From: a virus
Strand: one strand, 5' to 3'
DNA length: 55,590 nt
Virus record (IMG/VR): IMGVR_UViG_3300005466_000009
Location: 1 to 55,590 of that record
In this document: positions 3,157 to 55,266 of the stretch, one piece after another
Numbering within the stretch: the first letter of the stretch is position 1
Layout of the letters: the number at the start of each line of letters is the position of its first letter
The notes under the pieces: generated by a model
What the model saw: only the letters and a program-made list of their open reading frames with translations
Told to the model about the DNA's origin: nothing
Databases searched by the model: none
Position numbers and translations under genes: made by a program

Positions 3157-3395
3157 TCCACCACGTGGTCGTCTGTGACCTGCACCTGACCAGCGGGGAG
3201 CGAGTCCTGTTCCAGCACAAGGGGTCGATGCGCACGGTAGAGCGTGCCGCCCACCAGGCCGGATGGCTGACCCTCGGGTGGCCGCGGCTCGACCTGTGCC
3301 CCAAGTGCGCGCAGACCGATCGCGGCGAAGCGCCCACGCTGCTGCGCAGCTTCCGACGCCTGCTCGTCGACGCGCTGAGACGGCACCGGTCGTGA
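3153..3395 (+). CDS. small zinc-pair hypothetical protein
   Basis: 80 residues, GTG start overlapping the previous stop. Begins IHHVVVCDLH and carries CPKC near residue 52, so two half-sites for a metal could come together. The C-terminal tail is Arg/Leu rich. Last convincing member of the operon that starts across the map join. Confidence 0.6.
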   Translation: MIHHVVVCDLHLTSGERVLFQHKGSMRTVERAAHQAGWLTLGWPRLDLCPKCAQTDRGEAPTLLRSFRRLLVDALRRHRS

Positions 3396-3513
3396 CCCTG
3401 CCCGGCGACCGGCAAACTCAGAGTGCCGTGCGGTCCATCGGTCCAGTTCAGGTAGCCATCCCACCAAGGTTTTCTACGGCTGTAGATCCCGTGACGAAAG
3501 GAAATGCTTAGCC

Positions 3514-3642
3514 ATGCGTACGTTCTGGGGAGCCCTGCTCGATCCGGCCGAACGACCCTGGGCGCTGACGTTCTTCCTCGTGTTCTGGGTGCTGATCATG
3601 CTGGCGGCCTTGTTCGCCGGGGGCGACACCTCGGGTTGGTAG
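3514..3642 (+). CDS. 42-residue single-pass membrane protein
   Basis: A short frame with GAAAGGA upstream of ATG 3514. After a charged N-terminus (about 16 residues) it has one hydrophobic helix of about 20 residues, then a short Gly/Asp tail. Likely inner-membrane miniprotein of unknown role. The 120 bases before it contain a small dyad, TCTAC-GGCT-GTAGA, at about 3473-3486. Confidence 0.55.
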   Translation: MRTFWGALLDPAERPWALTFFLVFWVLIMLAALFAGGDTSGW

Positions 3643-3719
3643 CGCTGAGTAACCGATCAAGATCAAACTATCCACCTGCACGGGGCTGAGACCCTGACTC
3701 GATCACGGAGGGTGAAAGC

Positions 3720-4181
3720 ATGTCCGGAGCGTGGAACCGCTGCTCGGCCGTTCAGTGCTGGTCACCGGTGGTGGACACGCCTGCTGGAGTGCCGCTCTGC
3801 CTGGAGCATCGCGAGCAGCTGGCCCGCGAGTTGGGCGCGAAGGCGTCCTCAGTCGTCTACTACCTGACGTGGGACGGGGGCTGCTCGATCAAGATCGGGA
3901 CGTCGACGCGCCCGCGGCTGCGGTTCAAGCAGCACTCGAAGGATGTGGGCAAGCCGGTCACGGTGCTGGCCGTTCACCCTGGCGGCTACGCCGAAGAGCA
4001 GGTGCAGCACGCGCGCTTCCGTGACCTGCTCTTGCCTGGACAGTCCGAGGTGTTCCGCGCGGGTCCGGCGCTGCGCGAGCACGTCGCTTCGGTAAACCAC
4101 TTCTGGCCGAACTGGGAGGCGCTGGTGTCTGCGATCGAGTCGGCTCGACCTCGGCGCCCGCGTGCCAGTTCGATGATCTGA
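3720..4181 (+). CDS. GIY-YIG-like (T5orf172/Mug113 type) nuclease-domain protein
   Basis: 153 residues; ATG 3720 with GGAGGGTGAAAGC just upstream. The central part has the pattern of the T5orf172 branch of GIY-YIG nucleases: VVYYLTW, then SIKIGTSTRPRLRFKQH, then a Glu-containing helix and a second basic segment. The N-terminus holds two Cys-containing stretches that may bind zinc. The expected role is a DNA-cutting or DNA-binding accessory protein. Assignment is by motif only; catalytic activity is inferred. Confidence 0.55.
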   Translation: MSGAWNRCSAVQCWSPVVDTPAGVPLCLEHREQLARELGAKASSVVYYLTWDGGCSIKIGTSTRPRLRFKQHSKDVGKPVTVLAVHPGGYAEEQVQHARFRDLLLPGQSEVFRAGPALREHVASVNHFWPNWEALVSAIESARPRRPRASSMI

Positions 4182-4190
4182 CCGGCCGAC

Positions 4191-4261
4191 TTGCGCTCCC
4201 CCTGCCGTAGGGGGTACGCTCATGGCACACCAGGAACGACCGACACCACGGGAGAACCGAG
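4191..4261 (+). promoter_or_regulatory. promoter and conserved leader for 4262
   Basis: -35 TTGCGC at 4191-4196, 18 bp, -10 TACGCT at 4215-4220 preceded by GTAGGGGG. The leader contains GGAACGACCG and GGGAGAACCG before ATG 4262. Confidence 0.75.
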
Positions 4262-43290: not shown

Positions 43291-43293
43291 AGT

Positions 43294-43387
43294 TCGCCGG
43301 GCAGGATTTGAACCTGCGTTTCCGCCCCTGCCCGGACCTCTTGATCCAGGTGGTCGGCGGCGTCCTGGGCCGCTAAACGACCGGCGA
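43294..43387 (-). tRNA. tRNA-like element with an abnormally long anticodon loop
   Basis: On the minus strand, TCGCCGG pairs with CCGGCGA (7 bp acceptor). The D arm GTTT-AGCGGCCCA-GGAC and the T arm GCAGG-TTCAAAT-CCTGC are canonical and Glu/Gln-like. The anticodon stem CCGCC/GGCGG holds 29 bases instead of seven, with a small inner hairpin (ACCT/AGGT). No CCA is encoded. No anticodon can be assigned with confidence; it may be a broken tRNA, an unusual long-loop tRNA, or a tRNA mimic. Confidence 0.55.
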
Positions 43388-43404
43388 AGCCAAGCTTGCG
43401 CGGA

Positions 43405-51258: not shown

Positions 51259-51471
51259 GTGTACGTATATGACCGGAGCGGCAACTACAAAGGGCGCGCG
51301 GGCGGACCTGTCCGCGACGTCCGGACCGGCAAGCTCCAGCACATGGGACCCCCGCGCCCGACCCCGACCGCGAAGAAAAAGGGCGGCTGTTTCAAGGCGG
51401 CCGCGCTGGTCGTCGGACCGCTGGCGCTCGCCGTCGCGGGGGTCGTCGCGCACGTCGCCGACTGGGTTTGA
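51259..51471 (+). CDS. small tail-anchored membrane protein
   Basis: 70 residues, GTG with AGGACGGAGCC upstream. Basic N-terminal half, AKKKGGCFKAA, then one membrane helix (LVVGPLALAVAGVVAHV). Resembles the C-terminus of the 50599 protein in layout. The last gene before the non-coding stretch. Confidence 0.55.
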   Translation: MYVYDRSGNYKGRAGGPVRDVRTGKLQHMGPPRPTPTAKKKGGCFKAAALVVGPLALAVAGVVAHVADWV

Positions 51472-51503
51472 CTACCCCTGCCCAGGACGGGTAGGGTTCC
51501 CGT
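51468..51503 (+). promoter_or_regulatory. promoter of the 51504-52315 RNA
   Basis: TTGACT 51468-51473, 18 bp, TAGGGT 51492-51497. CTACCC and GGGTAG form a dyad over the spacer, as in the protein-gene promoters. Expected +1 near 51504. Confidence 0.65.
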
Positions 51504-52206
51504 TGCCGGCCACCGGAACTCGCGAGGGGGAGCCTTCGCCGGTCCGGCTTCAACTTCTCACCGCCATTCGGATTACCGGTGAGACGGGGGCGACGCACCT
51601 GACATGGAAGGTGCGTCACGTTCGCCAGGCGGCTTGCCTCAAGTCGAGACGCCTGGCGAATACCCCGGCAAAGCTGCAACACCTCGCGCGCGCCGATGGG
51701 GGACTGGTCCAGGACAAGTGGCCGAAAGGTCCAGGGCAGCGACCAAGTCACGATTCGGCGCGGCGAGTGCGCAGGAATGGGAAGTGCCCGAACGAGCGCG
51801 CTGTTGGGGGCACCACTCCAGGGGACGGGGATAGCCTGGGGATCGGTCCGGCTCGGCACGCCGCGGGCACGGTGGGGTTCGACTCCCCCGCCGTGTCGTT
51901 GCCGAGTCGGACCCCTAAAACGCCGTGAGGTACCGCACCCCCGTGTGGCCTCTCGGAAGTGCCGGCGAGTCGGTTCGTCTCCTCCTCGCCGGGGCGGAGC
52001 GTGGCTCGTCCAAGCAGGACACCTCCGGGTTGGCGCTGGGTAACCGGCGCCACGGGGCGGGGAGATCAGGGTGTCAAGCCCCTGGCCACGCGCGCAGCGA
52101 GCAGTACCGCAGGGGTAAAGCGTTGTCCAGCGTGGACCTGGTCGGGCTGTGGTTGAACCTGGGTAGGGCCGTCGTGCTCGGACGTCACGGCGACTTGCAC
52201 CAGGAC

Positions 52207-52273
52207 GGGCGTGGGGACGGGTTGGCCCCGTCGCGGGGGAGACCCCGAAGACCGGTTCGAGTCCGGCTCGCCC
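52207..52273 (+). ncRNA. tRNA-like 3' domain of the large RNA
   Basis: GGGCGTG pairs with CTCGCCC (one T-T mismatch), D-like arm GACG/CGTC, a 5-bp arm CGGGG-GAGA-CCCCG with only four loop bases, and a T arm CCGG-TTCGAGT-CCGG. 67 nt in all. Without an anticodon loop it cannot decode; it looks like a tRNA mimic or tRNA remnant. Confidence 0.45.
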
Positions 52274-52274
52274 A

Positions 52275-52315
52275 GCGGAAGCCCCTGCCGGTCACCAAGC
52301 GGCAGGGGCTTCCGC
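52275..52315 (+). terminator. terminator of the large RNA
   Basis: 16-bp perfect arms (52275-52290 and 52300-52315) around a 9-base loop. Confidence 0.8.
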
Positions 52316-52320
52316 GCGTC

Positions 52321-52389
52321 TTGCCAACCCCCGTTCATTGGGGGTACGCTACGTCCATCACCGGAACGACTCACCAGAGGAGAACCACC
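52321..52389 (+). promoter_or_regulatory. promoter and leader for 52390
   Basis: TTGCCA 52321-52326, 18 bp, TACGCT 52345-52350; ACCCCCGTT and TGGGGGTA form an imperfect dyad. Leader GGAACGACTC then GAGGAGAACC. Confidence 0.75.
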
Positions 52390-52656
52390 ATGCTGATCGG
52401 ACAAGACCTGCCGATCCTGCTCGGCGACGAGCACGGCACCATGTGGGTGGACAACGCGAACGGCACGGTCACCAACACGGGCGACGAGAACGACGGCCGA
52501 CCCGACCAGCACTGGGACGATGTCCCGGTGGAGGTCATCCGCGAGCTGCACAGCGGTCAGTGCCGCTCGCGCGGCGAGCTGGCCGAGTGCCCCGGTGGCC
52601 CGGACTGCGCGGAGTTCGAGCGCATCGCCGGCCTGTTCCTGGGCCTGCCGGCGTGA
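52390..52656 (+). CDS. small acidic hypothetical protein
   Basis: 88 residues, ATG after the leader; longer frames upstream cross the RNA gene and promoter. QDLPILLGDEHGTMWVDNAN, then CRSRGELAECPGGPDCAEF with three Cys. Overlaps the next gene as GTGA. Unknown. Confidence 0.65.
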   Translation: MLIGQDLPILLGDEHGTMWVDNANGTVTNTGDENDGRPDQHWDDVPVEVIRELHSGQCRSRGELAECPGGPDCAEFERIAGLFLGLPA

Positions 52657-52856
52657 GCAACATCGGACCGAAGACGGGGGAACGATGGACCGGGGCGGGA
52701 CCGGAACTCGACGGCTACCGCGTCGAGCTGTCCGCCGACGGCGAGGCGGCGTTCGTCACCGATCCGGACGGCGACACCACGTCGCTGTCCCGCGCGGCGT
52801 GGGTGCCCGTCGCCGACGCGCTGCTGGCGCTGCACGCCGCGGCCGCCCGGCGCTGA
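52653..52856 (+). CDS. small hypothetical protein
   Basis: 67 residues, GTG in a GTGA overlap. Beta hairpin pattern (LDGYRVELSADGEAAFVTDP) then a helix (AAWVPVADALLALHAAAARR). Unknown. Confidence 0.55.
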   Translation: MSNIGPKTGERWTGAGPELDGYRVELSADGEAAFVTDPDGDTTSLSRAAWVPVADALLALHAAAARR

Positions 52857-52966: not shown

Positions 52967-53335
52967 ATGGACCCCGAAGACCCGATGAACATCGTGGACT
53001 CCGAAGTGGAAGCGCTCGCCCGGATACCGCTGCTCCAGCGTGCCGCCGTCCCGCCCGATCTGGAGCACCTGTCCGTCGCCGACCTGATCGGGTTCACCAA
53101 GTCGCTGGCCGACCTGAACCACGTGCTCGTCGACAACCTGAACTCCATGATCCGGGCGGCCGAATTGTTCGCGGCCTCCGTCGGGTCCGTAGTGGCCGCA
53201 CAGGTCGAGCTGGTCGAGCGCCTGGAGGCCGACGAGCAGGCGGCCGCAGAGCAGGCGAGCGAGACTTCTGCGGCCGCGGACTGGCCGGGCAGTGTGCGCC
53301 CCGAGTCGCTGGGCGGGGCGAACCTCCCCGCCTGA
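52967..53335 (+). CDS. helical hypothetical protein
   Basis: 122 residues, ATG 52967 with weak ribosome site (GGAGC further upstream). Helical with LSVADLIGFTKSLADLNHVL and VSELV-like stretches, acidic tail. Unknown. Confidence 0.55.
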   Translation: MDPEDPMNIVDSEVEALARIPLLQRAAVPPDLEHLSVADLIGFTKSLADLNHVLVDNLNSMIRAAELFAASVGSVVAAQVELVERLEADEQAAAEQASETSAAADWPGSVRPESLGGANLPA

Positions 53336-53346
53336 CCTGCGAGGAC

Positions 53347-53418
53347 TTGCACATTACCCCCGGTCGTGGGGGGTAATGTGTGCCCGTTTCCGGAACGACC
53401 CGTCAGGGGAGAACCACC
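53347..53418 (+). promoter_or_regulatory. palindromic regulatory site and leader for 53419
   Basis: CACATTACCCCC (53351-53362) and GGGGGTAATGTG (53369-53380) form a 12-bp inverted repeat. The -10 would be TAATGT (53374-53379); TTGCAC at 53347 is 21 bp away, too far for a standard -35. Leader GGAACGACCC then GGGGAGAACC. Confidence 0.55.
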
Positions 53419-53964
53419 GTGTTCACGCTCGTGTCCCGCTCGCTGCATTCCGCGCTCTACGGCGTCCCCGTCTGGTGGCTGCTGGTCGCCTCGTGGTGGG
53501 ACCTGTGCACACGCTCGCCGCTGGCCGCGCAGTTCTACCAGCCGGTGTGTCTGGCGTTCGCGCTGCTGGTGCTGGCGGGCTGTGGCGGCTACGTGTCTGC
53601 CGGCTTGCAACCCCCATCAGTAGGGGGTAGGGTTCAGCAGGACAGGGAACAACCCGACCAGGGGAGAACCGAGCAGCATGGACCACTTCGTCGCACTCGC
53701 GTGCATCGTCAGCGTGTTTTGGTACTCGCTGCCCGCCTACGCCACGGCGCCATCACGCGTCGCCCTGGTGCTGAGCACGCTCTTTCTGCCGGTCATCGGC
53801 TGGGCCTGGACCGTGCGGGCCGGCTACCTGGCCCGGCGCGAGCTCGCCGCGGGCCGCGCAACCGTGAGCGCGATGGAGGCGCACTGGCAGCGGCTGTGCG
53901 CCGTGGAGTTCTGGCGCGAGAAGCTGACCTCGGGAACCCCGGTCGAGAAGATCAACGCGGCTGA
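53419..53964 (+). CDS. membrane protein with no stop before the next gene
   Basis: GTG 53419 follows the conserved leader. The first 70 residues are a plausible two-helix membrane protein (VWWLLVASWWDLC, VCLAFALLVLAGCGGYVS). The frame then stays open through the promoter and 287 bases of the next gene, with Arg-rich low-quality sequence that looks like the shadow of the 53678 frame. The stop may be genuine or result from a lost stop or a sequence error. Confidence 0.45.
   Translation: MFTLVSRSLHSALYGVPVWWLLVASWWDLCTRSPLAAQFYQPVCLAFALLVLAGCGGYVSAGLQPPSVGGRVQQDREQPDQGRTEQHGPLRRTRVHRQRVLVLAARLRHGAITRRPGAEHALSAGHRLGLDRAGRLPGPARARRGPRNRERDGGALAAAVRRGVLAREADLGNPGREDQRG
53605..53677 (+). promoter_or_regulatory. 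promoter and leader for 53678
   Basis: TTGCAA 53605-53610, 17 bp, TAGGGT 53628-53633 after GTAGGGGG. Leader GGGAACAACCCG then GGGGAGAACCG. Confidence 0.75.
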
Positions 53965-54031
53965 GCTGCTCGCGCTCTGGGGCGAGTCCGCACAGCCGCC
54001 CGACCTCGGCCCGATGGACTTCGACGGCTGA
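53678..54031 (+). CDS. membrane-anchored hypothetical protein
   Basis: 117 residues, ATG after the leader. Two hydrophobic segments (residues 4-20 and 26-48), then a helical cytoplasmic part with MEAHWQRLCAVEFWREKL and EKINAAELLALWGES. Unknown. Confidence 0.65.
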   Translation: MDHFVALACIVSVFWYSLPAYATAPSRVALVLSTLFLPVIGWAWTVRAGYLARRELAAGRATVSAMEAHWQRLCAVEFWREKLTSGTPVEKINAAELLALWGESAQPPDLGPMDFDG

Positions 54032-54065
54032 TTTCCCCCATCACTTCGAGCGTGAGGAACTGACC

Positions 54066-54494
54066 ATGATCGAACACGACGAGAACGTGGCCGACTTCTA
54101 CCTGGGGCGCGGCCGCGACGCGAAGTACCTGGGGACCGCCGGCGACTGCTCCCCCGAGCAGCTCGCCGTGTGGCTCCGGTTCACCGCCGACAACCCGGAG
54201 GTCGAGCCGTTCCACGCGGCGAGCTTCAGCACCGCGGTGCTCGACCTGATGAACAACGACGAGCCGGTGCCGGAGCCCGACCACTACGGCGAGGTGCTGC
54301 GCTTCGGTCGTCGCTCGTGGACCACGTGGCCGCACGAGTACGACACCAGCGCTGGCACGGCGTGGACGTACAGCTTCGACAAGGGCTCCGTCTTCGTGGA
54401 CCACAACGGCTTTCCGTTCGCCGTCATCTACTGCAACGGCGGCCGCAACCCGGTGCCGTACCCGACGCTGGCGCCGGCAGTCGCCCCGTCATGA
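54066..54494 (+). CDS. hypothetical protein
   Basis: 142 residues, ATG with GTGAGGAAC upstream. Acidic, alpha/beta: DENVADFYLGRGRDAKYLGT, CSPEQLAVWLRFTADNPEVE, WTYSFDKGSVFVDHNGFPFA. Two Cys, no motif. ATGA overlap with the next gene. Unknown. Confidence 0.65.
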   Translation: MIEHDENVADFYLGRGRDAKYLGTAGDCSPEQLAVWLRFTADNPEVEPFHAASFSTAVLDLMNNDEPVPEPDHYGEVLRFGRRSWTTWPHEYDTSAGTAWTYSFDKGSVFVDHNGFPFAVIYCNGGRNPVPYPTLAPAVAPS

Positions 54495-54640
54495 TCGGGT
54501 CCGTGCATCCCAGCGTGCGTATCACCAACGCCAACCCGAACGCCAGGCACCGCGGGTCGAACGGCTGTTTCGATCTGGTGCTCGCGCCGGTGGTCCTGCT
54601 CGCCACCGTCGCCATGATCTTCTGGAAGAGGACCCGATGA
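54491..54640 (+). CDS. 49-residue tail-anchored membrane protein
   Basis: ATG in an ATGA overlap. Polar N-terminal half, then one membrane helix (FDLVLAPVVLLATVAMIFW) and KRTR. Stop overlaps the following ATG. Unknown. Confidence 0.6.
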   Translation: MIGSVHPSVRITNANPNARHRGSNGCFDLVLAPVVLLATVAMIFWKRTR

Positions 54641-55266
54641 GCCTTGGCGGCAACCTGGTCCGGGCTAACAACATGCGGCCCGGTCAGACCCCGGAAAAGC
54701 AGAGCCTGCGCCAGCACCGGCAGTGGTGGCACGACGAGATCAGGCGCCGTGAGGAGGTCGACTCGGCGGACGTGGTGCCGCTGGCGCCGACCTCGCTCCC
54801 GCTGCTGCCTGCGCTCGCGCTGCTGCACGCCGATCTGCGCGACGAGTACCGCGACGCTCTACACGGGCGCCGGACCGTGTTCCATCGTCGGGTGCGGGTC
54901 CGCGGCGCCGACGGTCAGGTGCACGTCGTGTGGCGTATGCCGCTGATGGCGCCGTCCGCCGACCTGACGTCGCTGTGGCCGGGCCGTCTGGAGCCGCACG
55001 TGTCGCAGGCTGCCCACGCCTTGGTCGAGCGGCAGGCGTCCGCTGAGGCCGAACCGCGGGTGGGTCGCGCGCTGTTCCGTGCGCGGCTGCTCGGCTACGG
55101 GTTCTCGGCGAAGGTGGTGGACGAGGCGCTGACGCGCGCAGCGTCCGGTGCTCACGTGCAGCTGAACCGGAAGCAGTTCGGCAAGGCGGCACTGCTCGTC
55201 GACGGCGTCGAGCTGGCGGCGAACGGGGCGCTCACGTACGCGCGGGCGGTCGCCCGTGAGTCCTGA
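54637..55266 (+). CDS. hypothetical protein
   Basis: 209 residues, ATG overlapping the previous stop. Helical N-terminal part (KQSLRQHRQWWHDEIRRREE), a beta-rich centre (FHRRVRVRGADGQVHVVWRM) and a C-terminal alpha/beta part with LLGYGFSAKVVDEALTRAAS. Unknown. Confidence 0.65.
   Translation: MSLGGNLVRANNMRPGQTPEKQSLRQHRQWWHDEIRRREEVDSADVVPLAPTSLPLLPALALLHADLRDEYRDALHGRRTVFHRRVRVRGADGQVHVVWRMPLMAPSADLTSLWPGRLEPHVSQAAHALVERQASAEAEPRVGRALFRARLLGYGFSAKVVDEALTRAASGAHVQLNRKQFGKAALLVDGVELAANGALTYARAVARES

Follow-up and report, generated by a model that had tools for sequence, protein, structure and literature searches.

A large structured RNA gene with a tRNA-like 3' domain in an uncultured actinobacterial phage, and like-placed RNA genes in its relatives

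Introduction

In the 55,590-nucleotide stretch of viral DNA analysed here (the window) an 812-nt unit at positions 51504 to 52315 is probably an independent gene whose product is a large structured non-coding RNA. It is one of a set of like-placed RNA genes in its clade, and most likely works in the manner of GOLLD. The best reading is a new large-RNA family of phages that would work like GOLLD without being a member of it. To our knowledge, only a few classes of large ornate RNA have been described. GOLLD and ROOL, the two phage-linked ones, are RNAs of several hundred nucleotides that are carried by phages, often beside tRNA genes, and that form RNA cages of unknown function, GOLLD assembling into a 14-mer.

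Results

Genome and boundaries of the RNA gene

The window carries a 30-nt terminal repeat and is thus probably a complete genome, that of an uncultured actinobacterial phage. PHROGs recognises a terminase, a portal, a major head protein, a tape measure, an endolysin, an Ant-like anti-repressor and an Erf-like annealing protein, and the relatives found by terminase and portal are mostly actinobacteriophages. With a codon-usage gene caller trained on the phage itself, the region 51472-52389 is the largest non-coding gap and the only one longer than 400 nt. It contains the RNA gene, which in this phage and its relatives is placed between the DNA-packaging and capsid genes, and which is delimited by the following features.

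51504-52315, plus strand: large non-coding structured RNA gene, 812 nt, its putative start placed from the promoter
51468-51497, plus strand: promoter TTGACT-18-TAGGGT, a member of the phage's own family of promoters whose spacer holds an inverted repeat
52275-52315, plus strand: terminator-like hairpin with 16 perfect pairs (52275-52290/52300-52315) and no U-run
52321-52350, plus strand: next phage-type promoter, which serves gene 52390-52656 and bounds the RNA gene

The upstream promoter consists of TTGACT (51468-51473), 18 nt and TAGGGT (51492-51497); this specific pattern occurs once in the window and never in shuffled sequence, and it is kept in the homologue L007 described below. A looser layout, with the inverted repeat in the spacer, is present 11 times in the window compared to 0.35 expected, so the initial annotation was right to call this a family-type promoter, and transcription of 51504-52315 would start from it. 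The same annotation had placed a 16-bp terminator at 52275-52315; the stem is indeed perfect, but the U-run is absent, and an intrinsic-terminator scan consequently gives the hairpin no score. The promoter at 52321-52350 lies directly 3' of this hairpin. The promoter/operator family, TTGNNN-CCCCC-N-GGGGG-TANNNT, is phage-wide (for example at 4191, 8976, 9369, 16398, 50176, 52321 and 53605), and promoters with the inverted repeat in the spacer are also found in the relatives L007, G009, G014, G021 and G022.

Comparison with L007 shows conserved pairing, not a conserved frame

Dense inverted repeats had been noted in the unit and are present, with a minimum free energy for 51504-52315 of -453.7 kcal/mol (z = -6.2, from 20 shuffles only). 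In 200-nt windows the folding energy of the unit is unexceptional for this GC-rich genome, and many coding windows fold equally well; hairpin density by itself therefore proves little, and we rejected folding energy as proof of an RNA. The comparison with L007 is decisive where folding energy is weak evidence. L007 comes from another metagenome, has the RNA unit downstream of a terminase 86% identical to that of the window, and is the sole close (true) homologue of the window RNA; a last viral scan for further members of this sub-type, A, returned L007 alone.

Relative to the window, the RNA unit of L007 shows indels of -1, -2, -7 and -10 nt, which break reading frames. With pairs predicted in either sequence and then scored in its partner, 57% of the changed pairs were kept in 51500-51690 and 50% over the whole unit, compared to 20% in 47 windows of coding sequence from these two phages, among which the maximum was 36%. 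A consensus fold of both sequences has nine double compensatory and 12 one-sided compatible changes, although because it is fitted to both sequences the unbiased number is the fraction of pairs kept. L007 thus conserves base pairs and not an amino-acid frame, and codon log-odds are negative for every long plus-strand ORF tested in 51504-52315, which bears out the earlier statement that no credible reading frame is present.

The 3' half of the RNA and the next gene share a block of 96-100% identity with L007 (approximately 51906-52700), in which differences fall at the three codon positions as 2/5/1 in the RNA part and 1/0/4 in the following gene. We do not regard the ~98% identity of the RNA 3' half as special conservation, since it belongs to a recombination (mosaic) block that reaches 52700. 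A second mosaic block of 96% identity joins 53332-54643 to L007 15412-17090, where L007 has ~370 and ~220 nt extra.

Elements within the RNA

The following elements, all on the plus strand, make up the unit.

51556-51584, plus strand: hairpin with conserved loop ATTCGGATTAC; four of its eight pairs differ in L007, three doubly compensated, one by G-U and none broken
51592-51617, plus strand: hairpin with invariant loop TGACATGGAA
51620-51661, plus strand: long hairpin TTCGCCAGGCG..CGCCTGGCGAA, with one compensatory G-C to A-T change
51690-51765, plus strand: hypervariable arm, replaced in L007 (-2 and -7 nt), containing a GGCC-GAAA-GGTC GNRA hairpin
51845-51913, plus strand: 15-bp arm, in which L007 has another hairpin in place of the tip 51860-51897
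52207-52274, plus strand: tRNA-like 3' domain, with acceptor GGGCG/CGCCC, a D-like hairpin and a T arm at 52251-52267

The tRNA-like 3' domain proposed in the initial annotation is confirmed by a T arm, ACCGG-UUCGAGU-CCGGC, with four of five pairs and by a 5-bp acceptor. The place of the anticodon arm is taken by a GNRA-capped stem at 52234-52247, and the domain has no 5-bp anticodon stem with a 7-nt loop. The two GNRA stems noted previously fare differently, as CGGGG-GAGA-CCCCG at 52234-52247 is real and conserved, whereas GGCC-GAAA-GGTC at ~51720-51733 lies in a stretch replaced in L007. Rfam ranks tRNA-Sec highest in this region (52207-52273), a weak match of 22.4 bits under a cut-off of 47, and no tRNA covariance model reaches its gathering score in the window. 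An ARAGORN call of tRNA-Pro at 52188-52274 was discarded because it has no believable anticodon arm, and an attP within the tRNA-like end was likewise discarded because the window has no tyrosine integrase. The consensus fold also permits 51526-51534 to pair with the acceptor strand of the tRNA-like domain.

In the window phage the swapped arm tip at 51860-51897 is itself T-arm-like (GGGGTTCGACTCCCC). A 45-nt match of 84% identity to this part (51844-51888) is present in genome G091 of the Pseudonocardia family (L174, ~1500-1545); it too is T-arm-like, no tRNA is called there, and it is the sole match among 299 genomes of that family. The window also contains a second tRNA-like gene at 43291-43389 on the minus strand, which was missed by ARAGORN and cmscan. 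It has a perfect 7-bp acceptor, a tRNA-Glu-like D arm, a T arm GCAGG-TTCAAAT-CCTGC and an anticodon stem CCGCC/GGCGG, with a 28-nt hairpin extension replacing the anticodon loop. L007 keeps the gene, with T.G replaced by C-G in the extension.

Like-placed RNA genes in related phages

Among phages with portals 42-45% identical to that of the window, each one fetched and checked has one such terminase-portal gap on the same strand. These non-coding units are ~0.6-1.5 kb long, have one to three tRNA-like domains each, and, as read by eye, each begins with a promoter and has a terminator-like hairpin. We distinguish four sub-types: A (the window phage and L007), B (G014 and G021, 73% identical to one another), C (G011, G012, G013, G016, G020 and L041, which are modular and mosaic) and D (G018). 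Full T-arm motifs number eight in 8.3 kb of RNA genes, where 0.08 would be expected from sequence elsewhere in the genomes; at the level of four of five pairs, where alone the window's own two count, 13 are found compared to 0.44 expected. The Rfam tRNA model is above its cut-off in three relatives (L041, 44.9 bits; G016, 38.7; G011, 37.3).

The tRNA-like modules retain the acceptor and T arm, and in sub-type C also the D arm, with anticodon arms that are aberrant or missing in most relatives inspected. The first tRNA-like element of G011 is nearly normal, ARAGORN reads that of G018 with a 7-nt loop, and T loops vary, being TTCGCGT in G011 and G016. L041 has three tRNA-like domains in a row at 3380-3820, with spacers. 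Five members of sub-type C have a core of similar fold in which, by hand alignment, two variable helices show double changes and none broken. A module, helix-AGUA-stem(UCGCA loop)-GAAC-helix, is common to sub-types B and C. It lies outside the tRNA-like elements, RNAs that have it contain a single copy, and no genome has more than one; it is absent from the window, L007, G018, G016 and G020.

Neither nhmmer nor blastn finds similarity between the sub-type A RNA and the other sub-types, and HMM and motif searches likewise gave no link from A to B or C. The window nevertheless has the layout of the set, a ~0.6-1.5 kb terminase-portal unit with a phage promoter, a terminator-like hairpin and a tRNA-like domain, and sub-type A has place, promoter, hairpin, length and tRNA-like 3' end in common with the others. 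Their shared position makes common descent of the sub-type A RNA with those of the relatives probable.

Comparison with catalogued RNAs

No catalogued family in Rfam, with the GOLLD, ROOL and tmRNA models included, matches 51504-52315. The earlier suggestion of a large structured RNA, of a new class or a distant relative of a known one, is supported both by this and by the conservation of pairs rather than frame. The GOLLD model (RF02032) matches none of 11 records (the window phage and ten relatives) at E <= 1, nor does a permissive cmscan return GOLLD, whereas the model scores Mycobacterium GOLLDs at 124-160 bits; these controls come from eight genomes that belong to a single genus of Mycobacterium type, a label that we infer from the cited papers. 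An HMM built from the same eight gives only short, non-significant matches, most of them to tRNA D arms. The ROOL model (RF03087) is also without a match, and since it gave no match in its control either (phage K), the weight of this negative rests on the permissive cmscan.

The window RNA resembles GOLLD as a phage or prophage RNA, often longer than 800 nt, with a variable 5' part, a better kept 3' part and embedded tRNA or pseudo-tRNA elements (PMC12286853; PMC6582537). Such elements are seen here too in the eight Mycobacterium-type GOLLDs (L176-L183, at ~1570), where the ARAGORN reading differs between SeC, Arg, Glu, unreadable and none. Being a large phage RNA with an embedded tRNA-like element is insufficient for membership, however, and the window RNA differs from GOLLD in having no covariance-model match, in carrying its tRNA-like domain 3'-terminally, ahead of the terminator, and in having no tRNA array nearby. 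The 3' end of sub-type B has GGGGAAGTA..CCCC and GAGACCGGCC/GGCCGGTCTC, as in Mycobacterium GOLLD, and in the sub-type B RNAs L123 and L130 the hairpin GGGGAAGTACGCGATCCCC and the stem GAGACCGGCC/GGCCGGTCTC resemble actinobacterial GOLLD elements.

ROOL, which often lies near tRNA islands, is likewise a large ornate RNA of phages with unknown function, but its covariance model does not match. With tmRNA (RF00023) the window RNA shares large size and a tRNA-like domain, but the domain is contiguous rather than split between two ends and there is no tag ORF; ARAGORN found no tmRNA, and the tmRNA model recovers only a T-arm fragment in G021 (14.7 bits). Phage tRNA genes have the same acceptor and T-arm architecture, but the domains in the window and its relatives are embedded in a longer RNA and have aberrant or missing anticodon arms.

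Searches outside the clade

A sequence search of cultured phages and plasmids for the window RNA found no relative, only short matches to tRNA-Cys genes, and the cultured relatives Tonitrus, CloverMinnie, BatteryCK and Clawz have no such terminase-portal gap in the stretches read. Pattern matches in L024, L162, L164 and L165 were set aside as chance, lying mostly or wholly in coding sequence. A genome scan through the portal gave a single host-genome relative (L172), the 57.7-kb Pseudonocardia thermophila contig NZ_FRAP01000030.1, which encodes the clade's portal (33%) and terminase (43%) and has no RNA gap in the stretch examined. This contig hints at Pseudonocardiales hosts.

Discussion

Several other explanations of the locus were weighed. 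That it is an untranslated leader or coding region, with ORF 51925-52656 providing an N-terminal extension of gene 52390, is hardly tenable; the ORF is open in both the window phage and L007, but its codon log-odds are -17.8 before 52390 and +41.3 after, the changes in it fall mostly at codon position 2, and a terminator-like hairpin and a promoter intervene before the gene. Each locus has one to three tRNA-like elements, of which some are near to real tRNAs (the first element of G011, for example), and this is in keeping with a degenerate array of decaying phage tRNA genes and spacer sequence. Such an array is very unlikely, since the spacers are conserved and covary, the common AGUA/GAAC module is located outside the tRNA-like elements, and the locus has its promoter and hairpin in every complete relative examined. 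The similar layout, embedded tRNA-like element and phage origin, together with the 3' end of sub-type B, would fit a very divergent GOLLD that is invisible to the Rfam model, but the failure of both model and permissive search in records of the clade, set against the strong scores of the Mycobacterium GOLLDs, and the insignificant HMM matches make this unlikely.

Host enzymes that attack tRNA include anticodon nucleases such as VapC, PARIS/AriB and retron effectors, and a possible, if doubtful, explanation is that the RNA is a tRNA decoy or anti-defence RNA, whose modules, having no usable anticodon loop, would soak up or resist such enzymes. The retention of the acceptor and T arm (with the D arm in sub-type C) beside aberrant anticodon arms speaks for this, as does the replacement of the anticodon loop by a 28-nt extension in the second, free tRNA-like gene of the window phage. 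Phage tRNAs with changed anticodon loops have been proposed to evade tRNA-targeting defences (PMC10264068). However, a decoy would not account for the remaining structured RNA, where covariation is best; T loops are also variable in G011 and G016, and no defence target was identified.

We favour a new family of large phage RNAs with a GOLLD-like role, as suggested by the likenesses to GOLLD set out above. The phage would make the RNA during infection, and it would fold into a multi-domain molecule in which the 5' part is modular and the 3' domain mimics a tRNA. The tRNA-like part or parts would most likely be an added module through which the RNA engages machinery that reads the elbow and acceptor of a tRNA, not its anticodon. 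More tentatively, this new class may be a scaffold with one to three anticodon-less tRNA mimics that capture or mislead host tRNA-handling enzymes during infection, for which tRNA-targeting defence nucleases, RNase P or ribosome-associated factors are candidate targets.

A further phage-borne set of RNAs with tRNA-like elements, unrelated in sequence, suggests that phages have repeatedly arrived at a large structured RNA with a tRNA module. The sub-types, together with their stripped-down tRNA mimics, make this idea testable, module by module.
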